Below are positions 1 through 14,293 of a stretch of 14,293 nt of DNA, piece after piece. The translations under genes were made by a program, and so were the position numbers. The DNA comes from Cyclostephanos tholiformis. Its lineage: Eukaryota > Bacillariophyta > Thalassiosirophyceae > Thalassiosirales > Thalassiosiraceae. The notes beneath the pieces were generated by a model, which worked only from the letters and a program-made list of their open reading frames with translations, was not told the origin of the DNA and made no database searches. Where the stretch lies: NCBI GenBank assembly GCA_036939975.1, contig JALLPB010002021.1, positions 1-14,293 of the forward strand. Direction: 5' to 3'. Position 1 is the first letter of the stretch, and each line of letters starts with the position of its first letter.

Positions 1-27
1 ATCATTACTAACACCAGCAATCAGTAA

Positions 28-513
28 CTATCGAATAACTTCACTTCCACAGTTTTAAAATCGCCGCTACTACCTCTCCCCTGTCCGAAATTCAATTGTG
101 ATAATTTTGGAGCCTCTTCCGACCCGGCCATCATCGTCGGCGGCCTTAACACCACCATTGCGTACTCAATAATTTACCACCCAACTCGGGTCTACAATCT
201 CACACGTAGGCCTTCACGTAGGAACTCATACATCCACCAAACTAGCCACCACAACTCACCAGAATCTATCCACTTGACGCCAATCAACTCCCTTTCTTTC
301 AACCTCGACGACCTTCGTAGACTGTCTTCCCCACAATATTCAGTCCGAATCGTACTCCTTGATCTTCAACGAACAGGCATACACTTTATCAACAGGCGGC
401 CAGAAGGGGGAGACGTAGCGTACAATCTTGACGACTGTCCTTCCAATCCATCCCCAAAAGAATATTGTCGGGAACACACCTTACGCGACGGCACCTACAA
501 TATTCCCATTTGA
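28..513 (+). other. Open reading stretch without ATG, uncertain coding status
   Basis: Frame 1 is free of stops from just after a TAA at 25-27 to the TGA ending at 513 (about 160 codons). It contains no ATG; the only candidate starts are non-standard, such as TTG at 274. No domain is recognisable. It is rich in Ser, Asn, Thr and Arg. It could be the 5' UTR of the retroelement, the remains of a first ORF, or a chance open frame. The next open stretch overlaps it in another frame. Confidence 0.2.
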
Positions 514-742
514 TCTGGCTGATCCGAACGCCTCCAACGAATTGTCATTGTTCGGTGGTCCCCCTGCCTTGGATTCTGACGGAAACGAGGTACACTCCGA
601 CGACTCCGACGAATCGTTATCCTCCGGCGGCCCCCCTAACTTGGATTCCGACGGAAACGAGGTGCACTCTGAGGTGCATTCTGACGAGTCAAGCGAGGGG
701 CCACTTAGCATCGACTCCGGCGTACACGTAATATTCGATTAA
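419..742 (+). pseudogene. Acidic repeat-containing ORF fragment upstream of ORF1
   Basis: Frame 2 is open from after the TAG at 416-418 to the TAA at 740-742 (107 codons) and has no ATG. Its second half encodes two near-identical 24-residue units, each beginning GGPP(A/N)LDSDGNEVHS, then a degenerate third (GPLSIDSG). It is strongly acidic and serine-rich, hence probably disordered. Third-position differences between the units (gtc/gcc, tct/tcc, gta/gtg) mostly leave the protein unchanged, which suggests it was once translated. The position just upstream of ORF1 suggests a leader protein or the original N-terminus of ORF1. Function is unknown, and the start is either lost by frameshift or lies elsewhere. 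Confidence 0.35.
554..697 (+). repeat. Two 72-bp tandem repeats (24 codons each)
   Basis: Unit 1 is 554-625 and unit 2 is 626-697, in the same reading frame, with a decayed third copy starting at 698. Each begins with a run coding GGPP and includes GACGGAAACGAGGT. The second half of unit 2 carries an extra EVHS-like motif (gaggtgcattct), pointing to a smaller internal duplication of gaggtgca(c/t)tct at 659-682. Confidence 0.8.
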
Positions 743-813
743 CAACATTCTGCATTTCACGGCAGGAATTTATCACGGCGACTCACCGAACAAGCCTGAG
801 GGACACCAACACC

Positions 814-984
814 ATGCCGCCACCGGCATGACCCACATCGGGGAGTTGGCCCCTAATTTCTGCCTTAAAGAGTACGTCAAAGAGGAAATCCCCTGTTGAC
901 AAGGATGCATCCGTTAGCGAGACAGGAGCAATTAGTACTCCTCTACGGTTGGATAAAGCACATTGGCCTGAGGGGACATAACCA
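814..984 (+). pseudogene. ORF1 N-terminal end, interrupted by two stops
   Basis: ATG at 814 sits in a strong eukaryotic start context (CACCATGCC). The frame then reads MPPPA, a TGA at 829-831, a basic segment containing SALKSTSKRKSP, and ends HWPEGT before a TAA at 979-981, after which the main ORF1 frame continues directly as PMMIAEP. The frame is thus continuous with the ORF below apart from the two stops. The Lys/Arg-rich stretch is what one expects near the N-terminus of a nucleic-acid-binding ORF1 protein or of a nuclear localisation signal. I read it as the true ORF1 start lost in this copy; an alternative is plain 5' UTR. Confidence 0.5.
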
Positions 985-1878
985 ATGATGATTGCAGAGC
1001 CGATGCAGGATGACAGCAATCTGGGAAGATTGACAATGGATGCAGACAATAGCACAAAATCCGACCCAAAGGACTTGGAGTCAGGTTCGAAGTCGGATAG
1101 TCTTGCGGAGGCCATTACAAGCGCTCAAAAGACACTTTTTAGAGCATCATTACCAGTTGACGATGAGGCAGATGAGGCAATCTCCGTGGCCACATCCAAG
1201 TCCAGGAAATGGAGACCAATTAAACGACCAGAGAAGGTGGCAACCAGCACTCTCGGCAGCAATACCATTGTTGATTTAACCGCTACTGACAGTAGACGAG
1301 GAACATCATTCGCGGCGGATACAAACTTCAAGGAGAAGGAAAAAGCCGCATCGAAGGCATCACCTGGGCCGGGCAAAGCGACAGATGCAGATGAGCTCAG
1401 GGAGGTGGTAGTACAAGTGCGCATAAAAATTCTCCCGGGGGCCAAAGATGTTCAAGAGACGGTTCTTGGACTTATGCATCACTGCCTTACAGTTCTTAAG
1501 GAAAGGGACAAGATGGCTTGTTTCGTTAACTCCAAGAAGTCACTGATTGCCCACAAGCTCACAGACTTCCCACGCGACTTCACTGACTTTCATGACGACT
1601 GGGGCATCTGGGACGAGCCAATGAAATCTTTCCTGAACACGATACCGGCAGGCAGGGGGCAATCGTTCACAGGGTCCTTTTATTTCCGGAGCACATGGGA
1701 GCCTGAGAAGCTGTTTGAAAAGACACTATTGAAAATGGCTGCGGTTGCAAAGCTTAAGGGATCCATCGCTATTGCCGTGAAAGCCTGTCAATGCCTTGAC
1801 ACAGAACGGGCAATAATTTTCTTTAATCCTTCTGCTCTGCCGCAAGCCTGCAAAACGTCCTTCGGAAGGCGATGGTAG
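985..1878 (+). pseudogene. Retrotransposon ORF1 protein, N-terminal/middle segment
   Basis: 297 codons from the first ATG after an in-frame TAA (979) to TAG at 1876. The first ~130 residues are acidic, serine-rich and probably disordered. From about residue 135 (REVVVQVRIKILPG) the protein is ordered and shows the pattern I associate with ORF1 of diatom LINE-like elements: a conserved DFPRDFTDFHDDWGIWDEP block (~residues 193-211), an FTGSFYFRST strand, and an AIAVKACQCLDTER block near the end. ORF1 proteins of this class usually bind element RNA to form the ribonucleoprotein; I see no zinc knuckle or RRM I can name. The last ~8 codons look like frameshift readout: the following ORF, read upstream in its own frame (SLQNVLRKAM), continues the protein better. 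Confidence 0.7.
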
Positions 1879-3053
1879 AACAAAAGTCTAGATTGATTAA
1901 CCGTTATCCCACCAAATGGCCCAGGATGGAATGGGGACGACCACTGCCGGACTTCGAATTAATCCGTGATTTTGTGCGGAACACTCCATGGAGGAACAGA
2001 GAAGAGAAGTCTACTATACAGGCCTACCATAAACTGGCCTGGCATCTGGAGTGTCCCTCAAACGAGGCCGATCGGGTATACAAACTCCTCAAGGCAATGA
2101 AGTCCAATAAATCGCTATACCGTATCTTGGGGGACTCGGCCACCATCCTGCGTGCACCAGGAACGAATGCCAGCATGGACATGAGGAAGAAGCTGGCCAC
2201 AGCCGTCAGCTTTCACACCGCATTCCAGATGAGCATCAATCATGTCCCACTTCGCGGACTACTGGATCCGGACAAGGAAGCAGAGCTGATACGAGTTGAC
2301 GACGACGATGGCAATAGTCAGGAGGCGGTGCGTCTTACGGTGCGGAAGGTTATGTTCAGTCATAAAGTAAATCATATACCATTATGGCAGGCCATAGTTC
2401 AGAACGACGACGGTAGCTGGCGTGGCTATTATTCAAATGGGGTGGGCTGTCAAAACCACAAGAGTGTGGCCACAGCATGGGCAGGCGCAATAGGGGCACA
2501 TTTAAAATTCCATCTACTCAAACAAGGGGTCACGGAAACAATGGCATTAAAGTTGGCACAAGCAAGTTGCTCCACCCAAACCTTCCACGACGCATGCACT
2601 TCAACCTTTAGGGACGGGAAGGTAATATCAGCAGCCCAGGCTGAAATGGACGATGAGCTGGAAGAAATGCAGCAACGTGCACGCTGGGTCGACATAACGG
2701 TAGGAATGGAAGCGTCGGAAAAACAAGAATATGACACCGAATGCATGATTCAGCTGCTCGAACCATCGGACCCCAGGGCACTGAACTTCGACGACGAACA
2801 GTCCCTGAAGACCTTTACATCCCAGGCTGCCGGTACGGCTTATACTATTGCGCCAGTGGAATCCCTGGGCGAGACAGCATACGAGCATCCAGTTGACGAG
2901 GTGGACTCTCAGGAGTCAGACTTATTTGAGCTGGACAACGATGATGGCTTTGTGGATGATCCATTCCAGGACGAAGATAGGGAGATAATAGCCAACTTGG
3001 AGGAGGTCGTACGAGATACCTCTAGGACGCCGGGTACGGCGGCGGCTGGGTAG
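1872..3053 (+). pseudogene. Retrotransposon ORF1 protein, C-terminal segment
   Basis: 393 codons; its ATG overlaps the upstream stop as ATGGTAG. The frame is open before the ATG and reads sensibly (SLQNVLRKAM) up to about 1840, so this is most likely the -1-shifted continuation of ORF1 rather than a separate gene. Visible blocks are a Trp/Pro-rich start (YPTKWPRMEWGRPLP), a helical middle, a QNDDGSWRGYYSNGVGCQNH segment (~residues 177-196), a helical Q/E-rich stretch, and an acidic tail rich in Asp and Glu (~residues 340-378). No named domain can be given from inspection. The frame ends at TAG 3051-3053 but continues open in frame from 3054 into the linker before the BRCT domain. Confidence 0.7.
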
Positions 3054-3455
3054 GATGCGGACATGGAACAGAAGGAGTATGACGGTGACCCAGGCAGGGC
3101 ACTCCCTTCCATTTCATCCCCTGAGAAGATCAACCGCATAACGACAGACCCCTCTCATATACCCAGGGTGCCTTCAGAGAAACAGCGGGAGACAATTCGC
3201 AACATGTTGAGAGAATGGGTGGAAACATGTGGAGGCGAGGACCTTCCACCTTCCCTTCAATTGCTTGCCGGCCGTATTGGGATAGAGGCGGACGCACATA
3301 CTCCGACACGGGGATGGCGCGGGCAACGGGATCGGGTGTCATCTCCAACCAGGACCGAGCTACCAGGTAACAAGCTGGCGGACAAGCGTTTTGTCCTAAC
3401 GGGCAAGTGGCCACGTCCCGATGGCCTGAGCCGCTCTCCGGGAAAGAAACAGTGA
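3054..3455 (+). pseudogene. Linker and N-terminal part of a BRCT domain in the retroelement
   Basis: In frame with the ORF1 C-terminal segment across the TAG at 3051; first ATG at 3063. Residues 1-100 from that ATG form a charged, Pro-rich linker with one likely helix (SEKQRETIRNMLREWVETCGG). From about 3363 it reads KLADKRFVLTGKWPRP, the first beta strand and Thr-Gly dipeptide of a BRCT domain of the RFC1/DNA-ligase type. It stops at TGA 3453, but the rest of the domain follows in the -1 frame, joined at a GGGAAAG heptamer (3440-3446). The domain, its position between ORF1 and the endonuclease, and its continuation are visible; its role is inferred. Confidence 0.6.
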
Positions 3456-3811
3456 GGGACCTTATCGAGAGGCACGGTGGCAGAGTCACCGTCGGGTTCT
3501 CCAACTCAATGGATTTCCTAGTTGTCGGGGACACACCCGGGCAGAAAAGTGTCATTGAAGCGAACGATAGGGGTGTACAGATCGTAACTTTGGATCAAGT
3601 GGAAGCTGTCATCACAAACGATGACATGGCGGTAGCGGACCTGGCGGGTCCCTACCCTGACGTTGCAAATGCCATTCTCTTTGAGAAGGGTACTCAAGTG
3701 CAGCGCCTACCTCCACCACAGGACCTTACCACGGGTGCAGAAGATGCCCCAACGGCGAGAGTGGCCGCCGGTCCGACTGATGGCATTGGAGGGGGCCACA
3801 GGGATGGGTAG
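3440..3811 (+). pseudogene. C-terminal part of the retroelement BRCT domain plus tail
   Basis: Read in frame 2 from the frame junction near 3443. It gives GKETVRDLIERHGGRVT (helix 1 and the Gly-Gly turn), SNSMDFLVVGDTPGQKS (strand 3 and loop) and IEANDRGVQIVTLDQVEAVI (helix 2, strand 4 and final helix). With the preceding KRFVLTG this makes a complete BRCT fold of about 85 residues. BRCT domains of RFC1 and NAD-dependent ligases bind 5'-phosphorylated DNA; the Thr-Gly and a Lys in the PGQK loop sit where the phosphate ligands lie in RFC1. Residues after ~3650 form a low-complexity Pro/Gly/Thr tail to TAG 3809. The frame is also open upstream of the junction but gives no BRCT-like sequence there. 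Confidence 0.65.
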
Positions 3812-4064
3812 TTGGAAGGCAGATGCTCCAGCCGCAGCGTCTGGGGGCACCAAAGTCAGAGGGGGAACCACTGCACGGGAAAGGGGAGCGCATCTGCCGA
3901 GATCAAGGCGGTCTGCTTGACGGGCAGCATTATACCGTCGTATTTGTTGAACATTAAATAATCACAATAATGATCCGAATCGAACAACGCAATCAAGTTA
4001 CAACGCCAACACACCACAATTAGAACAATATCGCAAGGTTGGTTATGAGGACGCAAAGACATGG
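3812..4064 (+). other. ORF1-to-ORF2 junction region of the retroelement
   Basis: This stretch has no convincing complete ORF. About 3812-3920 is GC-rich and frame 0 stays open there, reading SWKADAPAAASGGTK, possibly the shifted end of the BRCT-containing protein. From 3951 the ORF2 frame is open without a stop into the endonuclease, reading an Asn-rich stretch and then YRKVGYEDAKTWMERRLAGM. The coding frame of ORF2 may therefore begin before the ATG at 4065, either continuous with ORF1 or after a short AT-rich spacer. Confidence 0.4.
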
Positions 4065-4463
4065 ATGGAGAGGAGACTGGCAGGAATGAAAACTGGCGTC
4101 CCTAATCGGGTCGCCACTTCTTTGGCAGGCAAATGGTCAGAAACTTTAGGGGAAGATTTCACCGACCTAGACGATGGGATTGCAGAGATAGAAGCAGCCA
4201 ACCTTGCAAAACATTATCACCGATGGCACGTACAGTGGTTGGGAACTTTAGAAAATCCAAGACCGGACGGAGTTTTCCGCATATTAGGAGGGCAACTTAA
4301 TAGCGCATCATCTGTGGAGGTTAGGAGTCGGAAAGTTAAAGATGTAGTCCGCCTCATAAATGAGTGGGAAGTTCAGGCAGGGTGCCTCTCGGAGGTCGGG
4401 GTAAACTGGGCAAGCTACCCCTCCTCGGCGAATCTGGCATCATGGTTCAGAGAGGATATTTAG
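4065..4463 (+). pseudogene. Retrotransposon ORF2: EEP endonuclease, N-terminal part
   Basis: 132 codons from ATG 4065 to an in-frame TAG at 4461-4463. After a ~65-residue leader it enters an exonuclease-endonuclease-phosphatase fold: DGVFRILGGQLNSAS (Asn of motif I, ~residue 79), a helix, then CLSEVGVNWASYP with the metal-binding Glu at ~residue 110 (codon near 4392). In LINE elements this apurinic-type endonuclease nicks the target DNA to give the primer for reverse transcription. The rest of the domain continues in the same frame directly after the stop, so the TAG is a nonsense change inside one protein. The ATG at 4061 is in another frame and leads only to a short ORF. Confidence 0.8.
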
Positions 4464-6809
4464 GATATAAAAACACACACAGCTCATAATTCACATGAGA
4501 ATGTTGCACATCATCAAACAGGTGGTACGGCCACCTTTGCCTGCAGGGAACTTGCTCGATACGCTAAGGAACGAACTAAAGACCACAGAGGCCTAGGGCG
4601 CTGGTGCTCAACACTATTTTACGTGGACCCAAATCATAAATTCAGGTTGGTGTCCGCTTACAACGTCGGACGGCAAAAGCCGAGGGGAGATAGCACCATA
4701 TTCCAACAGCAGATCAGATATATTCAGAATCATGATCTCTCACATTCGCCATCGCGGCTGTTCACCATAGATTTCGTCGCGCAGCTTCAGACATGGCACC
4801 GTCAAGGAGACCGCCTACTGATATTCATTGATATGAATGAACACATCCTCAGGGGACATCTATTGAAGTATTTGCGGAAAATGGGACTAGTGGAGGCCAC
4901 TCACACAAAATGGGGGACAAGTAGCGAACCACATACTTACTTTCGAGGAACAGAGCCGATCGATGGGGTATGGCACTCACAAAGTTTGGAGATAGTCTCC
5001 ACTATGCAGCTCTCGTTTCATGAAGGCGTCGGGGACCATCGGACAGCCTTAGTGGATGTTACCACATCTTCAGCTATCGGGACACAGGAGTTTAAGATAA
5101 TACACCCAGCTGCAAGACGATTGAGCTCTGGCAACACACAAGCAAGGGACAAATATCTCAGGCACTTAGAACAGCAAATGACAACCCATCGTATGACAGA
5201 ACGTCTCCAGGAATGTGAACGTGAAACGTCCTCTTACCCAGCGACGGACAGCGTCCGCGAGAAAATGCAGCGACTAGACACGCAACTAGTCGAGATGCAA
5301 CGCGGTAGTGAGAAGCAATGCCGACAGATTTACTGGGGGACAATACCCTTCAGTGAGCCGGTTCGCACCATCTACATCCGTAAACGCGCATATCAAGAAC
5401 TTGCACGAGGGAGCAGCCGACCAGTCCAGCGGAGCAACGTGGTAAGAGACGCCATCAAGGCGGGAATTCCAACACCTCATCAACTGACACAGCAGCAATG
5501 CTTGGACGGGGTGGAAGCATGCTCCCGGAAGTTATCAACGTTAAGAAGGCAGGCGGGAGGTCTGCGTCAGGTGCATCTAAGGGATTGCCTTGTTCGCACA
5601 AAGAACATGGGGAATGACAATAAATACAGGGATATACTACGTACCATCAAGAGAGAAGAGCAGAAATCCATCTGGAGGCGGATTAACCGGGTAAACGATG
5701 ACCCCTCACTAGGCGCAGTTCAGTTTGTGCAGAAAGCAGAACGTGACGGCATAGTAGATATACACGAAACGCAAGCAATGAATGCGGAGATACAAGAGGT
5801 AACGGAACGACGGTTCGAGCTCTCCATGAGTGCTTCAATTACAATGACATCTCTGCGTGAGCGTCTCGGTTTTCTGTCTGACACAGACTTCGCTACACAA
5901 ATGTTGCGTGGCGAGGTACATATTCCATCGGACGTCGATGCACCCACAACTCTAGTGCTTGAGGAAATAATCCGATTATTCGGCTCCCTACACGAAGGAC
6001 ATTCCNCCACAACTCTAGTGCTTGAGGAAATAATCCGATTATTCGGCTCCCTACACGAAGGACATTCCGAAATCACATTAGGGGCGGAAGAGTTCAGGCA
6101 TTACTGGCGGAGCGCTCGGGAGAAAACATCCTCCTCGATATCTGGTATCCACTTTGGACATTACAAATCAGCGGCGCACTCCCCACTTCTCTCTGACTTC
6201 CTGGCAAGGAAGATCACACTGATCGCGAGGAGTGGATGCCCACCGGAGCGATGGGGTTATGGTCTGCAGGTACTCCTAGAAAAGATAGCGGGGGTTGCTT
6301 TAGTTTCAAAACTACGGGCTATCTTATTAATGGAAGGGGATTTCAATTACATGAACAAATGGATATTTGGCTACGATGCTATCAACAAACTTTATGAGAT
6401 GGGATACATTCCGGGGGATCAATACAGTCAAAAGGAAAGCACCGCGGAGGATGCGCGCATGGATAACCGTCTGACAATGGACATATCACGTCAAATGAAA
6501 CACCCGCTAGCAACGATGTCCGCAGATGCGGACAAGTGCTACGACCGGATTAATCACATTGTGATGTCGTTACTACTCATGGCCATAGTCGGTTCTGTGG
6601 GCAGCATAGTTGCGATGCTATATCCGATTCAGACAATGAAATTCTTCCAGCGCACAGCTAGAGGGGATTCATCAACGTACATGGGAGGGAGGGGGAAGGA
6701 CAACCCCCTGCAAGGGCTGTGCCAAGGTAATGGGGCAGCCCCGGCATGCTGGCTAATGCTCAGCTCAGTACTAATGCATTGTTACAAGAGGCAAGGCCTG
6801 GGCTCTTGA
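4464..6809 (+). pseudogene. Retrotransposon ORF2: EEP endonuclease C-terminal part and reverse transcriptase fingers/palm
   Basis: Open from the codon after TAG 4461 to TGA 6807; no ATG opens it. The EEP part continues with HHQTGGTA, DHRGLGRW, LVSAYNV, FIDMNEH (Asp-x-Asn), PIDGVWHS and GDHRTAL (Asp-His), so all catalytic positions are kept. About 300 residues of helical, Arg/Gln-rich linker follow. The RT begins near 6070: ERWGYGLQVLLEKIAG, LRAILLMEGDFNYMNKW, motif A SADADKCYDRI (catalytic Asp codon 6525-6527), motif B QGLCQGNGAAPACW. Motif C lies after the stop in the next piece. A 62-bp duplication around the N at 6006 adds exactly 63 bases (21 codons), so the frame survives; the duplicated 21 residues are very probably not real. 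Confidence 0.9.
5944..6068 (+). repeat. 62-bp perfect direct repeat flanking a single N (likely assembly join)
   Basis: Positions 5944-6005 and 6007-6068 are identical, with only an N at 6006 between them. Perfect identity ending exactly at an ambiguity base is the mark of two contig ends that overlap but were not merged. The insert of 63 bases keeps the reading frame, and removing one copy leaves HEGHSEITLG as a normal continuation. Confidence 0.9.
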
Positions 6810-8756
6810 ATCCTATCTCCGATGAGTGGCGCAATTATTGACTTCCTAGGGGAGATCTATGTCGACGACACTGATCTTATAATCACCAGACCAGAATTCA
6901 CTACAGCGCGAGAGACACAAGAAGGTCTCAAAGCGGCCGCGTGGACATGGGCATCGGGGCTGAACGCAACGGGAGGAGCAATAAACCCAGAGAAGAGTAG
7001 GTGGATATATGCGGGATATGAGTGGAACGACGATGGAACCTGGACATACGCTGCACAGCCCAACCTACCTATGGAGATCCCACTCCCAGACGGTTCTCCA
7101 GCCACCATTAGTCAAGCGGATGTGTCTACGGCAGAGAAAACTTTGGGAGTATGGTCAACGATAGATGGCAACGATTCCACACACATAGAACACAATATCA
7201 CAGGCAGGCTACAGAAATGGACCTCGAAAATGATTAACGGTCACCTATCAGCACGCCTGGGATGGATTGCGTACAGGTTTAAACTATGGCCCGGGATCAG
7301 GTACGGCCTTTTGACACTGGCAATGCCGCTTAAGACCGCGCGGAACACACTGCAAAAGGAGAATTTCCTCATACTGCCGTTACTAGGTGTTAATCGGCAT
7401 GTTAAAACAGAGTGGCGCACACTGCACCGCGCTTTTGGGGGGGTCGGTCTGCTCGACCTGGCGGTGGAGCATACAATTGGGATGATAAACATATTCGTGC
7501 AGCATTACGGTGCCGGGACGACGATAGCAATGAAATATGAAGCCTCTTTGGAAGCACTACAATTGGAGCTCGGGTGTTTGGGAAATCCTCTTATGGAAGA
7601 CTATACACGCTACCACCTCATGGCCACAGACAGTTGGGTGAAAAGCTTTTGGGAGCGTCTACATTATTACAAGTTCAGATTACATATCAATTATACGGCA
7701 ATCCATCTGCCGCGAAGGAACGACTCGACCTTAACGTCATTGTTTGTCCGCGGCGGCCACACAGGCGACCAGATACAGGCACTTAACAGATGCAGAATAT
7801 CACACAGGTTACTATTTCTATCGGATATAACACTGGCGTGTGGTAAATTCGTAGACCCGCTCTTCCTTCTACCACCGTCGAAAGACTCTAGGGTGCAGTA
7901 TGAGTCTTCATATACATTTCCAACCTGCAGACCATCAAAGGCAGACTGGGAGCTCTGGCAAGACTTCTGGGGGGCTACCACAGGAACCGCGGGTCTTCTC
8001 CACATTCCCCTGGGCGAATGGATATACAAATCTCATCGGATATGGTTCTGGTTCTACTGCGAGCACAGCGACAGACTCTTCCACCGACAAGGAGACACCG
8101 TCACGACTTACATACGCGTCGTCAACAACTCAAGGATCCGGTCACGTCAGCAGTATTGCCGGGGGGAGGAGATCGATGCAATTCCGCATCATTGCACACC
8201 CGCCAATGTAATACAGACACAAGGGGGTGTGGTGGTGCGGAGGAGTATAGGGCCACCACTAGCAATACAAACCACAACGGACAAGTCGTTCTGGGACTAC
8301 CTGCGGTCGTTAGGTGGAGAATGGATGTGGGAAAACACAGTGGAGGGGTATCCCGATGTAGGGTGGATCAGGTTCGCTCTGGAAACAAACACCTTCATCG
8401 GTGTGACTGACGGATCCTACAATAGAGACCGGGCAAGCACTGTGAGCGGTTCAGGGTGGTTGATATGCTGCACACGTTCGAAACGCATCCTTCGGGGATC
8501 ATTTTATGAAAATTCGCCAAAAGCGAGTTCGTACAGGGGCGAACTGCTCGGCTTGGTGGCCCTACATACATTGATCTCCAGCATCGCGTCATTTTACAAG
8601 CTCGACCAGCTACTCGGGAAAATATGCTGCGACAATAGCGGCTCTGCGTCAATCAGGCAGATGTCGCCGGAGAGTACGGACAGGGACAAAACACGCGGAT
8701 CTCCACCGAGCCATCCGAACTATCAAACTACGAACACCGATGAGACTCATTTATGA
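6810..8756 (+). pseudogene. Retrotransposon ORF2: RT motif C and thumb, connector, RNase H N-terminal part
   Basis: In frame with the preceding piece across TGA 6807; first ATG at 6822. GEIYVDDTDL is RT motif C, with the two catalytic Asp codons at 6864-6869. GGAINPEKSRW and the LGVW block are palm/thumb motifs, and the LSARLGWIAYRFKLWP and RYGLLTLAMP blocks are conserved downstream of RT in this group. A connector of ~400 residues leads to RNase H: GVTDGSYN (Asp codon 8409), SSYRGELLGL (Glu 8541) and CCDNSG (Asp 8631). After about 8640 the frame is wrong: the last ~38 residues (from SASIRQMS on) are out-of-frame readout, and the true continuation, ALRQSGRCRRRVRTG, is in frame 1. The segment supplies the polymerase active site and most of the RNase H active site. 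Confidence 0.9.
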
Positions 8757-9021
8757 GCACGTAAGGGCACATCAGGACAGAATACTTCCATGGAGCAGAC
8801 TCTCCCTTGTACAGCAGCTCAACGTTATATGCGACAAGCTAGTGAACAAGGCGGTACACCGAGCGATAACGGAGGGAGCAAAGCATTCCGGGCCTAGGTA
8901 TCTGCCGTTTGAAAATGTCGCAGTGGTGTTAGATGGCATCAAACTTACAACCGATGTAGGGTCAGAAGTACGCTATCGCCTAGGCAAAGAAGACGCAGAG
9001 CAATTTTATACCAAACCGTGA
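8641..9021 (+). pseudogene. Retrotransposon ORF2: RNase H C-terminal part
   Basis: Frame 1 continuation of the RNase H domain after a shift near 8640 (first ATG at 8740). It reads TGTKHADLHRAIRTIK, then YEHVRAHQDRILPW (the conserved His of the flexible loop), then LNVICDKLVNKAV with the fourth catalytic Asp at codon 8833-8835. Together with the preceding piece the RNase H carries Asp, Glu, Asp, Asp, the complete carboxylate set used to remove RNA from the RNA:DNA hybrid. It ends at TGA 9019-9021, after which the same frame stays open for another 350 codons, so this stop is again a nonsense change within ORF2. Confidence 0.8.
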
Positions 9022-10077
9022 AACGTGATCAGAGGCTCCAACAGGGGTGGGCTGGGATGGTCATCAAAGCGCTTCCACTCGGTTGCTTGGGATTCACTCG
9101 ACGCAGCATTAAAGTCGAAGCCAGATATGTTCCAGATCTGGCTGTCCAAACAATGCATCGGGATTTGTGCAACACGTCGAAATCTTGCCCGCATCCAGGA
9201 CATACTGGACAACAAATGCCCCAATTGCCTGCGCCCCCGGGAAACTAACGATCACCTCAATCGATGCCCTGATGCAGGTCGCACATTGCTGTTTAAGGAG
9301 AGCATCGCCTCTATCGTCGCGTGGATGCATCAGAATAATAGAACGGACGCCGAGCTTGCCTACTGGCTGGAAAAATACCTCATATATAGAGGTACGCGAT
9401 CACTAACAAGCCTGATTACGAAGGGGGGAGGGGGATCAACAGGCCTACTAAAAGCGGCAGCCAGTCAAGACTTAATTGGTTGGACAGAGTTTCTCCACGG
9501 GAAGATCTCAACCGACATCGAGAAGCTCCAAGAACTTCACTGTACTCTTAGCTCGTGTCATATTACCGGATCGGACTGGATGAAGGGTATGGCATCGCAT
9601 CTGATGCACGCATCACACAGTCAGTGGATCCTCCGGAATTTTACATTACATGACAAGCAAAGGGGATATTTGCGACTTCAACAACACAACGATCTGTTGC
9701 GGGAATTGGATAAACTAACCAACACACCACCCGAGGAAGTCCCTGAGGGAAGCAAATACCTCCTTGAACTGGATTACTCAGATTTGTGCCACATGACATT
9801 CGAGAGCCAATCTTACTGGGTACTAGCAATGAAGGCTGCGTGCAGAGCCGGACGCAGGATGAAAGCTCAGCACACCATCTCCCGCGAGTCGCGACAGAAA
9901 CGCTGCCGAAATCTCACTGAACGTCCAAGTAGGCGGACTCCGTGCTATGACTTCACAAATGAGGATAAACGAATGGAGCGTGAATTAGGTCTGCTCCCCA
10001 AACACCACAAGCGCACGAGAGCCTGTGTATCTGAAGTCACTAACCAGTCAAACAAGCGACTTCGCAAACCGGACTAG
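9022..10077 (+). pseudogene. Retrotransposon ORF2: C-terminal region with CCHC-type motif
   Basis: Same frame as the RNase H end, starting after TGA 9019 and ending at TAG 10075. Early blocks are FHSVAWDSLDAALKSKPDMF, IWLSKQCIGICATRR, and a zinc-knuckle-like motif CPNCLRPRETNDHLNRCP (C-X2-C-X8-H-X3-C, codons 9217-9267). Cys/His motifs near the ORF2 C-terminus of LINE elements are known to help bind RNA or DNA. The remaining ~260 residues are mostly helical with conserved-looking Trp (DLIGWTEFLHGK, GSDWMKGMASHL) and end in a very basic tail. No further domain is recognised. The ATG-like GTG at 9025 is not a likely start; the fragment is part of a larger polyprotein. Confidence 0.8.
9217..9267 (+). 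other. CX2CX8HX3C zinc-knuckle-like motif
   Basis: Translated in frame 1 as CPNCLRPRETNDHLNRC, with Cys, Cys, His and Cys correctly ordered for one bound zinc. It lies ~130 residues after the last RNase H Asp. All four ligands are kept despite the decay of the copy. Confidence 0.75.
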
Positions 10078-10256
10078 CACACGCCGGTACCTTGATCAAG
10101 TCAGAATATGCTCAAGTTGCATTCTCAACTCGATACCGGTTTTGACCGAAGGGATGAACATCCGCTGCCTCCGGCGGCCATGCTATACACCATGTAGGGC
10201 ATTACAAAAGACTTTATGTCTACGATCTTGTTTAGGGTACATCGTAAATTTTTAAG
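10078..10256 (+). other. Probable 3' UTR of the retroelement
   Basis: No ORF of note between the ORF2 stop and the (ATTT)4 tail. It contains a small GC-rich inverted stretch (CCGCTGCCTCCGGCGG at 10161-10176) that could fold weakly and could be a recognition structure, but I cannot support this beyond the pairing itself. Confidence 0.5.
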
Positions 10257-10272
10257 ATTTATTTATTTATTT
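10257..10272 (+). repeat. (ATTT)4 short tandem repeat, probable element 3' end
   Basis: Four perfect ATTT units, followed by AAAT and then unrelated sequence. Several LINE groups end in short tandem repeats instead of poly(A); the place, 180 bp after the ORF2 stop, fits. The exact boundary is inferred. Confidence 0.5.
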
Positions 10273-10630
10273 AAATCCCCTGGTCTTTCTCGTCGGGCTT
10301 TCATCCCCCCCCGCTGCTGGTACACTAAACAATGGCGGACTCTTCCTATTAACACACTTTTCATCAATGGCTGCCGTCATCATCCCACGGCCACACCTTG
10401 GTGCTCCCCACCCAGATCAGATGCATATAACAATCACCCAAGACCCAAGACTATTAGCTGCTGTTTCTGCCAGGGTAGGGCATGGTAGGTAGCGATGGAA
10501 CGGCCGCTACGGTAGTGAGCGGACGCCATGGTGTAGAAAATCAAAAAAATCTCAGTTTTTGGTTTCTCAGTTTTTGTGGCTGGGGTAGCTCGGGGACGGG
10601 GCGATTTTGGGCAGTCGGAGTGTTGCCACA

Positions 10631-10638
10631 TGACGTCA
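10631..10638. promoter_or_regulatory. TGACGTCA cAMP-response-type (bZIP) site
   Basis: Perfect 8-bp palindrome, the consensus binding site of CREB/ATF-type bZIP factors. In diatoms, TGACGT/ACGTCA elements in carbonic anhydrase promoters are known CO2/cAMP-responsive elements. It lies 156 bp before the likely ATG at 10794. Function here is inferred from the motif and position only. Confidence 0.45.
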
Positions 10639-10659
10639 TCCCCCGGGAGATCCCCCGGG
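10638..10659 (+). repeat. Duplicated ATCCCCCGGG motif next to the CRE
   Basis: Two copies of ATCCCCCGGG at 10638-10647 and 10650-10659, period 12, each containing the palindrome CCCGGG. It abuts the TGACGTCA site, so it may be part of a composite control element. Confidence 0.5.
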
Positions 10660-10793
10660 TATCCTCACAAATTTTGAGTTTAAAGCCACTCTATTTCCCC
10701 ACCCCCCCCAAAGTTAATCCAGGTGGCGAGTCGAGCAGCAACGTGTATGTTGTATCTCATTACACCTGCGACGCGACGGCCCTCCGAAAAGCC

Positions 10794-12149
10794 ATGCGAA
10801 CCAATGGCTTTCAAAGGCCATTCAACTCAATGCAAATTGGCACATGGGTGTTATTGCCAGTCCTCTTGATTCAATTCTTACTCTTTGCAACACCGGTCCT
10901 TCCTCTCGCGGCATCTATTCCCTGTACCATCAGCGTGGTGATATGCGGGGCTTCCACGGCCTACTTTACCTTCTGGTGCTGTAAGATCGACCCGATAGAT
11001 GAGCGGTTAAGATGCCACTTGGCTCGTCAGCATCAAGAGAATGATGGTGCCAATGACACCGACATTAGTTGTTCGAATGGAGATGTACAAGCAAACGACG
11101 ACACCAAGTTTTGTTGGATATGCGGCATAGACGTTCACGAATCTTCCATGCATTGCAAATTCTGCAATAAATGCGTCGTCAATTTTGATCATCATTGTCA
11201 CTGGCTCAATACATGTGTAGGAGCGACAAATTACAATCATTTCTTTCTCGCAGTGGGTGCCACCCTGTCAATGGTAATCGTGAGAGGGGGGGTCTTGGCT
11301 GGGTTAGTCATTTCATTTTTCGTCCAATACACACAAGTGATAAACGGCGGTGAATCAGGAGGCCCTGCTATTGATCGATTTGATGATTGGTTCGGTGCGA
11401 ATAACGGACTGGTTGTAGCGTTGGTGAACGCAATATTTTTATCTGTAGATATCGTATGTTTTGTATTGCTTCTGCAGCTGTTCTCGTTTCATGTTCGATT
11501 ACGCCATGAGGGTATAACAGTAAGTGAATTCGGTCCGGTATGGAATTGTGCTGCCTGTCAATGCGTACATAATGAGTATCTATTGATTAATATTCCGCAG
11601 ACATATACATACATTGTAAGAGCCGGGCAGAAAAAACGTGAAAAGATGAAGAATAAAATGGAGCTACATCATAGAAGAATAGCTGCGATGCGGAAGGCTG
11701 AGAGAGAAGGAAAGTTGATAAGGAAATGGAGACTTTCAGCAGCCGGATGTCGATATGTTGGTGAAATAGCTTGTCTGCCTTGCGATCCCTTGAAATTGGA
11801 TGAAATCTCCGGAAGCCAAGATATACAGCAATCTAATTCTGACGGGATGGATACAGAAGAAAATGGAATTCAAATGGACAATCGTAATGTTAGGAGTCAC
11901 GACTCATTTGAGGATGTGGTCTCAAGGGATGAAAAAAAAGACTTTGATGAGAAAAAAATAATCGATCTGATAGATGACGGACACCAAGAGATTGAGTACC
12001 ATCATGATATCAAAGTACCACCTTCGGCTCTTCAAGTTGCGATGGATATTCGGATGAAAATCAAGCACCAAGAGGAACAACATGATATAATAGAGAATTC
12101 TCCCAGCGGGAGCGAAGAGATGAAAGTTCAATTTCTCTCAACTCCTTGA
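10794..12149 (+). CDS. DHHC-type protein S-palmitoyltransferase (zinc finger DHHC family)
   Basis: Transfers palmitate from palmitoyl-CoA to cysteines of membrane-associated proteins; these enzymes usually act in ER, Golgi or plasma membrane. The 451-residue product from ATG 10794 has the family plan: TM1 ~15-37, TM2 ~41-63, a cytosolic Cys-rich domain ~107-141 with [25 protein letters not shown] zinc ligands and the catalytic FDHHCHW (Asp132-His-His-Cys135), TM3 ~149-178, TM4 ~204-230, and a TTxE-like box in variant form, GITVSEF (~240-246). The C-terminus has a basic helical segment ([16 protein letters not shown]) and an acidic, low-complexity tail. No intron is visible. The frame is open back to another ATG at 10482, adding 104 residues without family features; I prefer 10794 because [10 protein letters not shown] just before TM1 resembles the usual N-terminal lead. 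Some of the extension (from ~10740) could still be coding. Confidence 0.93.
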
Positions 12150-12398
12150 TTTGAGTCGATGTTTGGCATGACGCATAAACCACTTGCAAGCACTGTCAAA
12201 CCTATTAATATGTCCCAGACACAAATTTTCCAACTGATACGGTCAGCAAATAAAAATTCTACTTAACGGGGGCTCATCACTATGACAAATTGGTGAAACT
12301 AATGCGTATTGTGCGTGCGTGGTTGAATCCTTAATTTTTTCGATAGAAGACGTTGACCTTTTGATGCAGCATATGAAACACCTGTCATTTAAACCACA
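12150..12398. other. Convergent intergenic region between DHHC and phosphodiesterase genes
   Basis: 249 bp between two stop codons on opposite strands, holding the 3' UTRs of both genes. Apart from the AATAAA on the plus strand I see no repeat or RNA gene in it. Confidence 0.6.
12249..12254 (+). terminator. AATAAA polyadenylation signal candidate
   Basis: AATAAA lies 100 bp after the DHHC stop, a reasonable place for a polyadenylation signal. The hexamer is common in AT-rich DNA, and no cDNA evidence is available here. Confidence 0.35.
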
Positions 12399-14087
12399 CT
12401 AAATACTTTTGACAGAAGCGATCATATCTTTAGTTATTTCCTCTCCCTCCCTAATCCATCGATCTCGTAGTGAAACTGCATTTTTCATCCATTCACAGCC
12501 AATTTTACCAAATACACCGCATTCATGCATTTTTCCTGCAAGAGGAATAATGTACAACTTGAAAAAGCCTAATTGATTTTCGTACCAATCATTTGAGGGG
12601 TCGATTTCGCTACGAGCCATCTTGAAGGCATCATACAATTCCTCATATAATCTTCGATTCCAAAATAGGAAGAGTTCCCAGGATTGCATTGCATGAGCTA
12701 CATCTGCAACGTTGATTATAGTCTCAATGAGTACGCTTCGTTGGAGTGTTGTCCTCAAATCGTTGTCATCATCGTCATCATCGCATTCAGATAAGAATTC
12801 GATAGTTTGACCGCCATTGAGTCGTACTGATCGTTTTTTTGAGCCCCATTCCGGCTGCTTACTTTGATGCGTTGTGGATATGTTTTGCATTGGCACGAGC
12901 TGAGGCTTCGATGCTTGCACTGTTGCAACGTCAGATTGGTGAAACTTACCCCCCAATGAAGGTATGTCAATCGTTAATGAACTGTTGGGGGAGGGATGGT
13001 TAAAAGCCTCACCCCACCTCACTCTTGTTGATTGTGCCCTCTCTGGGCTCGCTATATCTGTACCAAGCACCATATTCGCGACAATGCGATGCATCTCATA
13101 TTGATCATCTCGCGACTCAAAAATGACGGAACGAAATACATCGAATTCGCTTTCACTCAGTGCTCGGAACGCAACATTAATCGAATGCTTTTCGGCGACG
13201 GATAAACTGCCGTGCTGTTCAACTATTGGATCATTCTCAAGAACGAGTCTTGTATTCGGCACGCCCTGGTGATCAACATCATGGATGAATGCAGCAAAGG
13301 TGACGGCGAATTTCGAAAAAAGGTCAGGGTGAATGCGCTGTTCACATGATTGTTGTAGCTTGGACCGCTTCGGTCTATGACATCTACCAAAGAAATCGTC
13401 CGTGGAGTTTCTCGTCGAATCCATGGAGAGTGTGAATCCGTTATTCTTACCCATCGTAGATTGGGATGAATCATCCAGTGGCCTCTTTCTATTAGCGATA
13501 ATAAGATTATGCGGCTCATGCACTGATAATTCGTTGATTTCGGTGTCATCGACATCCTCAGTTAATTCCACTGATCCTTTATGAATCATTTCAAGTAGCT
13601 TATCCGCACTCATCGTAACATGAGTTGCGTGTTCTAATCCATGATAACGATTGTCACGGTACATTGATGCAATGCGACGAACGTAGGCCCGGAGCTGATG
13701 TCGGCAGATCGATGTAAGTAGAACTGGAGCTTGAGATGGAGGCAAGTCTCCGCCAGTTGATCTGCCTCCTTCGCTAGCTAAGCCGAATTCCTCATCGTTC
13801 GACTCCCCTTGCGACGATACGTCCGAGGACAACCTCCGTCGCTCAATAGCTAACCTCAACTCCATCCGATACCTCACCACATCTACCAAACGCCTCTCTA
13901 GGATGGTCGAGACGAAGGAAATAAGTGTGTCCACAGTTGGCTCGTTCTCATGACTCCCTGGCGGCTGTCGGGCGCTCACGTTATCCCAGGATTGATCTGT
14001 AATCTGCCTCTCTTTATCCGTTGGTATTGTGTCCATGGTGATGGGAGGTAAACCAGCGTAAACATTCTCCGGGTCAGATAAAGACAT
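12399..14087 (-). CDS. Class I 3',5'-cyclic-nucleotide phosphodiesterase (PDEase I, HD-domain)
   Basis: Hydrolyses cAMP and/or cGMP to 5'-AMP/5'-GMP, ending cyclic-nucleotide signals. In the 562-residue product the catalytic domain runs from about 126 to 547: YHGLEHATHV (His149, His153), FAAFIHDVDHQGVPN (His269-Asp270, metal ligands), INVADVAHAM (Asp462, metal ligand) and ENQLGFFKLYIIPL (Gln505, the purine-binding glutamine). All key residues are present, so an active enzyme is expected; cAMP versus cGMP preference cannot be told. Two insertions enlarge the domain: ~75 residues between the first two motifs, with KRPLDD and HRPKRSK, and ~100 residues before Asp462 ending in an Asp run. The start is supported by an in-frame TAA 24 bp upstream (14109-14111) and the context GAAGCCATGT. 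No transmembrane segment or cyclase domain is seen, although many diatom PDEs are fused to cyclases. No intron is visible. Confidence 0.95.
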   Translation of the reverse strand: MSLSDPENVYAGLPPITMDTIPTDKERQITDQSWDNVSARQPPGSHENEPTVDTLISFVSTILERRLVDVVRYRMELRLAIERRRLSSDVSSQGESNDEEFGLASEGGRSTGGDLPPSQAPVLLTSICRHQLRAYVRRIASMYRDNRYHGLEHATHVTMSADKLLEMIHKGSVELTEDVDDTEINELSVHEPHNLIIANRKRPLDDSSQSTMGKNNGFTLSMDSTRNSTDDFFGRCHRPKRSKLQQSCEQRIHPDLFSKFAVTFAAFIHDVDHQGVPNTRLVLENDPIVEQHGSLSVAEKHSINVAFRALSESEFDVFRSVIFESRDDQYEMHRIVANMVLGTDIASPERAQSTRVRWGEAFNHPSPNSSLTIDIPSLGGKFHQSDVATVQASKPQLVPMQNISTTHQSKQPEWGSKKRSVRLNGGQTIEFLSECDDDDDDNDLRTTLQRSVLIETIINVADVAHAMQSWELFLFWNRRLYEELYDAFKMARSEIDPSNDWYENQLGFFKLYIIPLAGKMHECGVFGKIGCEWMKNAVSLRDRWIREGEEITKDMIASVKSI

Positions 14088-14293
14088 GGCTTCGCAGGAT
14101 TTGGACAGTTACCCGATCACCTCTCTGATTTAGGTAGTGCTCATAACTGATGATAACCATTTCTTTCCATTTCGGCGTTGATTACTGTGATTTCATTAGC
14201 TCATCACAAACAAATAAAATAAAATAATACTAGCGTTAAGGCTGTGATTTCTTTGAGCATGTAGACGTAAAACGTGTAGACGTAAAAAAAAAA
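14088..14293 (-). promoter_or_regulatory. Upstream region of the phosphodiesterase gene
   Basis: AT-rich region reaching the window end, with AAATA repeats at about 14208-14228 and the ACGT-bearing direct repeat at 14260-14287. The window ends in a run of ten A. No further gene is visible. Confidence 0.5.
14260..14287. repeat. 13-bp direct repeat TGTAGACGTAAAA with three ACGT cores
   Basis: Copies at 14260-14272 and 14275-14287, period 15. ACGT, the core of plant and algal bZIP sites, occurs at 14265-14268, 14272-14275 and 14280-14283. It lies 173-200 bp upstream of the phosphodiesterase start, so it is a candidate control element. It is close to the window end, so a longer repeat array beyond it cannot be excluded. 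Confidence 0.55.

Follow-up and report, generated by a model that had tools for sequence, protein, structure and literature searches.

A LINE-type retrotransposon family of Cyclostephanos tholiformis whose ORF1 ends in an RFC1-class BRCT domain

Does the BRCT-like segment seen inside a LINE-type element of the diatom Cyclostephanos tholiformis belong to that element, and if so, where did it come from and what might it do there? The question was raised by contig C1456 of a 25 Mb assembly, which in its full length of 14,293 bases is the stretch of DNA analysed here (the window). DNA alignment with a second, independent copy, found on contig C491, delimited a nearly full-length copy of a non-LTR (LINE) retrotransposon at positions 34..10275 of the forward strand. 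The C491 copy aligns to window 34-10266 in pieces of ~70–86% identity, with 291-414 and 504-839 left unaligned. Judged from the C491 flank, the window copy probably begins no more than a few tens of bases from position 1 of the window, and its 5′ end may lie just beyond it; the 5′ flank falls outside the window, and no target-site duplication was seen for this copy. The 3′ end is marked by a terminal TTTA-repeat tail (10255..10275, forward strand). The copies on C491, C835 and C1319 have similar tails, and in all four the repeat is followed by differing flanks. No LTR-like repeat was found, with no terminal direct repeat of ≥50 bases in window 1-10400.

The C491 copy is bordered on both sides by the same 20-base stretch, which is only suggestive of a target-site duplication because these flanks are satellite-like and the stretch recurs in them. 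The satellite-like repeat around this copy (C491:12600-14100 and 2001-3100, loci L060 and L059) includes GAATGTGCTCAAACACTT and ATGGATGTGGAGAA as parts of its unit; no array was reported in these flanks by Tandem Repeats Finder. An insertion preference of the element for this repeat is possible. In the 5′ part of the element, window 528-671 holds two tandem 72-base units, 81% alike, that encode an acidic repeat, and a similar acidic stretch is present on C491. Two identical 62-base stretches surround a single N at position 6006 (window 5944-6068), and both align to the same C491 stretch. The likely cause is a join that the assembly left unmerged, and the reading frame of ORF2 is unreliable at this place. 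Downstream of the element, two host genes converge (window 10479-14108): a DHHC palmitoyltransferase gene (10479-12149, forward strand) and a PDEase_I cyclic nucleotide phosphodiesterase gene (12399-14108, reverse strand).

A putative APE-type (EEP) endonuclease region of ORF2 was picked out by eye at 4380..5062 (forward strand) from the motifs SEVGVNW, DMNEH, PIDGVW and GDHR, and a similar motif series was seen by eye in the copy on C1319. The region had no Pfam match; PF03372 does not reach this family. The reverse transcriptase region (6080..7100, forward strand) carries SADADKCYDRINH, QGNGAAPACW and YVDDTDLII, which is the motif order of reverse transcriptases. The RVT_1 profile, with a cut-off of 29.6 bits, was passed on C342 (41.5 bits), C278 (39.3), C1307 (35.6), C1344 (31.9) and C286 (31.8), and these places overlap the own-genome matches of the window ORF2 stretch. 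It is solely through these own-genome relatives that the element is identified, by sequence similarity, as encoding a reverse transcriptase. Direct matches were absent from Pfam for the window pieces and for the open ORF2s of C1319 and C835, from NCBIfam for C835 and C286, and from PDB for an 8-row ORF2 profile; C835, C1319 and C1181 were not among the RVT_1 matches in the genome. The reverse transcriptase of this element is very divergent. A possible RNase H region at 8395..8760 (forward strand) was noted by eye from the motif VTDGSY, and PF00075 had 0 matches in the whole genome. Contigs C835, C1319 and C1181 hold apparently open sister elements with an ORF2 of ~2000 aa and without a BRCT. 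For Thalassiosira and Phaeodactylum, the available part of PMC2806351 names non-LTR elements of the RTE-like kind alone.

Stops and frame breaks interrupt ORF1 in the window copy. Its limits, set by comparison with P0128, an open relative, are 814..3811 (forward strand), within which open pieces lie at 982-1878, 1827-3053, 3054-3455 and 3371-3811. The conserved core has approximate limits of 1390..2750 (forward strand); in P0128, core residues 185-447 have a weak RRM-like or ferredoxin-like resemblance. The BRCT domain follows at 3369..3622 (forward strand), as located by PF00533, an own-genome scan, an HMM of relatives and the fold of the relative P0001. It is split by a frame break near 3431-3434, because the window copy is dead. 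The remaining C-terminal tail (3623..3811, forward strand) is conserved in P0001-P0007 and P0128-P0130, with 11–35% identity between P0128-P0130 and P0135 or P0136. The ORF1 frame continues into the BRCT frame with a single stop between them at 3051-3053, where C491 has a sense codon; on C651 the BRCT likewise lies in frame after ORF1, past one stop. Five open ORF1-BRCT proteins of 948–992 aa with PF00533 were found (P0128, P0129, P0130, P0135 and P0136). Since the two frames join in the copies, open fusions exist and relatives reaching this region carry the domain, the BRCT is the C-terminus of ORF1. The initial annotation had placed it between ORF1 and the endonuclease, as a module apart from both, and this has to be corrected. 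We hold the ORF1-terminal position and the inheritance of the domain with high confidence.

The window piece scored 27.7 bits against PF00533, above the curated cut-off of 21.3 bits, in the profile search that the initial annotation had proposed as a check. The own-genome copies scored 30.9 (C491) and 23.7 bits (C651), the relatives P0001 and P0006 37.7 and 36.7 bits, and the open ORF1 relatives 36.2 (P0128), 30.2 (P0130), 27.4 (P0135) and 27.0 bits (P0136). Scores for P0129, P0137, P0140, P0142, P0144 and P0146 ranged from 27.3 to 34.3 bits. P0139 fell just under the cut-off with 19.8 bits; its BRCT is 92% identical to that of P0136 over 85 BRCT columns. A BRCT fold is also predicted for P0001 (mean pLDDT 66.5 for this model and 53.3 for the ORF1 model). 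A chance motif as the explanation is ruled out by PF00533, the relatives and the fold. With this score, further copies and open ORF1-BRCT fusions, the claim of a BRCT inside a LINE-type element is borne out. Its proposed RFC1/NAD-ligase subclass also agrees with the best PDB matches by sequence, 2k6g and 2ebu (both RFC1), after which come DNA ligases. A BRCT of the RFC1 and NAD-ligase class was the best Foldseek match of the P0001 model; ranking by structure alone placed the BRCTs of Rad4, MCPH1 and TopBP1 above RFC1. The element belongs to a non-LTR (LINE) retrotransposon family with an RFC1-class BRCT at the end of its ORF1.

When the ORF1 stretch, joined to P0006, served as the query, 23 proteins were returned, 21 of them ORF1 relatives (P0128-P0148). 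The query contained the BRCT and just 7996 candidates were scored, so the result is biased toward BRCT-bearing matches and ORF1s without the domain may be under-represented. Eleven of the 21 extend past residue 900 of P0128, and every one of these has the BRCT (ten above the Pfam cut-off, plus P0139). For the other ten, the match stops at P0128 residue 485–849, before the domain. Beyond the ORF1 match, P0133 and P0148 continue into unrelated sequence. P0148, a metagenome protein, follows ORF1 to the start of the BRCT and then carries sequence with PF01915; it is probably an assembly chimera.

Within the genome itself, the BRCT is present in two more copies, C491 and C651, and the ORF1 relatives on C216 and C511 break off at contig ends before the BRCT region. 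The sister subfamily has open ORF1s of 1098 (C1319), 1050 (C835) and 858 aa (C1181), measured stop to stop. These three ORF1s contain no Pfam domain, BRCT included, and have a different C-terminal region; the match of the C1319 ORF1 to P0128, at 25% identity, ends at the acidic linker. A profile of these BRCTs matched 12 of the 62 loci examined, all from C1456, C491, C651 and a host gene on C1001. The HMM of relatives was built from rows that included the element rows it later scored, and for that reason the BRCT counts given here rest on Pfam.

What the domain does was approached through four positions that we take to be the phosphate/DNA contacts of human RFC1 (T415, G416, R423 and K458). 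The position of R423 is K or R in all 18 element rows. Excluding the window row, whose first ~21 residues are read in the wrong frame in three of the alignments and in the tree, G occupies the G416 position in 16 of 17 rows and T the T415 position in 10 of 17 usable rows. At the K458 position, K or R is found in 10 of 18 element rows and S or T in 8, the window clade included (S in P0128, K in P0136). At the residue immediately before it, all 18 element rows have K, versus S in 50 of 65 host rows. By these residues, the window clade has a changed phosphate pocket. With the lysine moved by one residue, phosphate binding could be either kept or changed. For this reason, we divide our confidence: DNA-end binding as the main function comes close to an even chance without reaching it, an adaptor role is a weaker possibility, and a purely structural or passenger role is improbable.

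End binding is favoured by the closest sequence relatives with solved structure, the RFC1 and NAD-ligase BRCTs. The isolated RFC1 BRCT is cited in the accessible part of PMC9293004 as binding recessed 5′-phosphate DNA with ~10 nM affinity; in whole RFC, according to the same portion of that paper, the BRCT contacts differ and loss of the BRCT alters DNA binding about two-fold.

The changed lysine makes an adaptor role a serious rival. The BRCT would then be a protein–protein or poly(ADP-ribose) adaptor through which repair or replication factors of the host, such as the clamp loader, a ligase or the PARP pathway, are recruited to the insertion, not a reader of DNA ends. Such roles are known for many BRCTs. 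The central BRCT of XRCC1 is described in the abstract of PMC6334254 as binding poly(ADP-ribose), and the title of that paper names both poly(ADP-ribose) and DNA. An adaptor would also accord with the altered pocket, with the structure-based ranks of Rad4, MCPH1 and TopBP1, and with the PARP-type zinc fingers or tandem BRCTs of some host relatives among the matches listed, but the closest solved relatives by sequence belong to the RFC1 and NAD-ligase class.

The origin of the domain was examined in a tree with RFC1 and LigA as outgroup, in which all 18 BRCTs of the element group together in a single clade (100/99) amid 65 BRCT segments of host proteins. The clade adjoins P0126, P0114 and P0076 (99/78, 96/75 and 88/88). 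From 187 domain segments, the 142 that were long enough were kept (P0002-P0004 were among those dropped), and 124 host segments, assigned as host by Pfam neighbours and names, were thinned to 65 at 78% identity. The tree has 87 columns, a long element stem (0.94) and an unsettled bootstrap, and support for the host placement is moderate. A loop before helix 1 (FP or WP, GGG.GL, GK) occurs in most host rows and in the element proteins P0135, P0136, P0139 and P0146. The GGG.GL-type loop is absent from the single RFC1 row and the single LigA row aligned, and it is eroded in the window clade. The loop lends independent support to an origin in the host family, as does the identity between the P0136 and C1001 BRCTs given below.

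The closest host row, P0126, combines a BRCT with a PARP-type zinc finger match of 27.9 bits, under the 39.3-bit cut-off. This finger (PF00645) is a nick sensor. Of the 224 host relatives found, 120 were listed, and 26 of these bear it by precomputed annotation, which counts in favour of end binding. Some host relatives, among the matches listed, have tandem BRCTs or a BRCT joined to PARP-type zinc finger or DnaJ-like domains. The host gene on C1001 (L004) has two RFC1-like BRCTs, the first split over two frames, perhaps by an intron. Its named nearest relatives among the matches listed are from Thalassiosira exigua and Skeletonema potamos, and its BRCT is 46% identical (50/108) to that of P0136. 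An RFC1 gene was considered as the nearest own-genome relative and rejected in favour of this tandem-BRCT gene. PF08519 had no match in the genome, and 14 control genomes were likewise empty, so absence is not implied. The RFC1/NAD-ligase class proposed for the domain stands by sequence, and the nearest relatives of the domain are RFC1-like BRCTs of stramenopile-type host proteins instead of RFC1 itself.

One clade among host BRCTs, co-divergence with ORF1 and low dN/dS make one capture, followed by inheritance under selection, the most likely history. The sequence comparisons point to a single capture from a tandem-BRCT or PARP-zinc-finger/BRCT host family, which we consider probable; our certainty is lowered by the erosion of the loop in the window clade and by the BRCT held in the search query. 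It is unlikely that the BRCT was instead ancestral to all these ORF1s, with a capture that predates the subfamily and a loss in C1319, C835 and C1181. Presence and absence are unpolarised without an outgroup ORF1, and ORF1s of the C1319 type end in a different region of their own, which would allow such a loss. Against it, the three open sister ORF1s are devoid of Pfam domains, and the loci matched by the BRCT profile (12 of 62) lie on C1456, C491, C651 and C1001 alone.

Across 21 pairs drawn from 7 proteins, BRCT identity was correlated with identity in the core of ORF1 (r = 0.94), which is what joint descent would produce, and the BRCT is conserved across ORF1s with core identity as low as 50%. 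For the single pair of copies compared, window and C491, dN/dS was 0.14 for the BRCT plus tail (121 codons) and 0.12 for the BRCT core (57 codons), with values of 0.08 for a part of the ORF1 core, 0.09 for the endonuclease part and 0.14 for the reverse transcriptase part. Both copies are now broken, which would raise dN/dS, yet the values are low; selection thus acted while the lineage was active. In one subfamily, the BRCT regularly comes with ORF1 as an inherited part and co-diverges with the rest of it.

The ORF1 proteins of known LINEs multimerise, and the sister subfamily manages without a BRCT. On these grounds the domain could serve just ORF1 assembly (dimer or RNP packing) or be a tolerated passenger, which we regard as improbable: a passenger would fit poorly with a BRCT dN/dS similar to that of the rest of the element and with retention of the domain down to 50% core identity. 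A host gene fragment in a single copy, or a chance reading, as the broken window copy and a BRCT that crosses a frame break might suggest, is effectively ruled out by the C491 and C651 copies, the open fusions, the single clade and the low dN/dS. The check for related copies lacking the segment, proposed with the original claim, gave the same answer: the copies of the subfamily in which the end of ORF1 is available (C1456, C491 and C651) keep the BRCT, and the sister subfamily is without it.

LINE insertion nicks the target and leaves 5′-phosphate ends. In the reading that we prefer, the ORF1 core would bind the element RNA, in line with its weak RRM-like resemblance, and the ORF1 BRCT would grip the 5′-phosphate end or nick made in the target by the element endonuclease. 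By this grip, the RNP would stay where the element inserts while target-primed reverse transcription or the joining of the second end takes place. As a whole, this explanation, a captured and inherited ORF1 BRCT used for gripping the target end, is about evenly poised. A more far-reaching version, in which the LINE took over a host sensor of 5′-phosphate nicks or ends as a C-terminal arm of ORF1, with the RNP itself thereby gripping the cut target and directing end joining or clamp loading, is more tentative, a possibility with less than an even chance.

Among known systems, the BRCTs of RFC1 (human p140; 2k6g, 2k7f and 2ebu) and NAD-dependent DNA ligase (1l7b and 1dgs) share the fold and motif order of the element BRCT and are its best matches; the basic residue at the R423 position is common to RFC1 and 18 of 18 element rows. 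Unlike these, the element BRCT sits in a retrotransposon ORF1 and has an extra loop before helix 1, and it differs from RFC1 at the K458 position in the window clade. The stramenopile-type host proteins, with either tandem BRCTs or a BRCT next to a PARP-type zinc finger, share the GGG.GL loop with the element, and their identity to the P0136 BRCT reaches 46%. Named records among the matches listed come from Thalassiosira exigua, Skeletonema potamos, Ectocarpus sp. and Chrysoparadoxa australica. These proteins read as cellular genes, with no ORF1 core and no reverse transcriptase in their Pfam annotation.

Accessory domains of a cellular type, PHD or esterase, are known from ORF1s in CR1/L2 lineages according to the available parts of PMC4120745 and PMC3905857. 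They are likewise kept within a subfamily; the kind of domain and the group of hosts are not those of the element BRCT. BRCT is mentioned 0 times in the main text of PMC4120745, and in PMC1564403 the term occurs in the reference list alone. Moth TRAS LINEs carry a captured viral helicase domain (PMC5563155, as far as its text was available). This, too, is a foreign domain preserved in a LINE lineage; unlike the BRCT, it lies in ORF2, is of viral origin and is an enzyme. The initial annotation knew of no described non-LTR element with a BRCT, and literature pairing BRCT with transposons likewise showed none among the papers listed, as judged by title and start of abstract in a collection with few subscription journals; an earlier description in those journals or in Repbase is conceivable.

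Extra domains in LINEs are already known, and a BRCT in a LINE is apparently new within the literature covered. How a LINE holds the cleaved target and attaches the second end is debated, and the part of ORF1 in both is unclear. A lineage with an ORF1 BRCT of a DNA-end-binding class beside a sister lineage without it offers a natural experiment on insertion and end structure. The BRCT would join the short list of reported LINE-carried domains (PHD, esterase and helicase), and its capture gives a testable idea of how the element handles the DNA ends made at insertion. Should the more far-reaching version given above be true, the retrotransposon would have an end reader of the repair type to itself.
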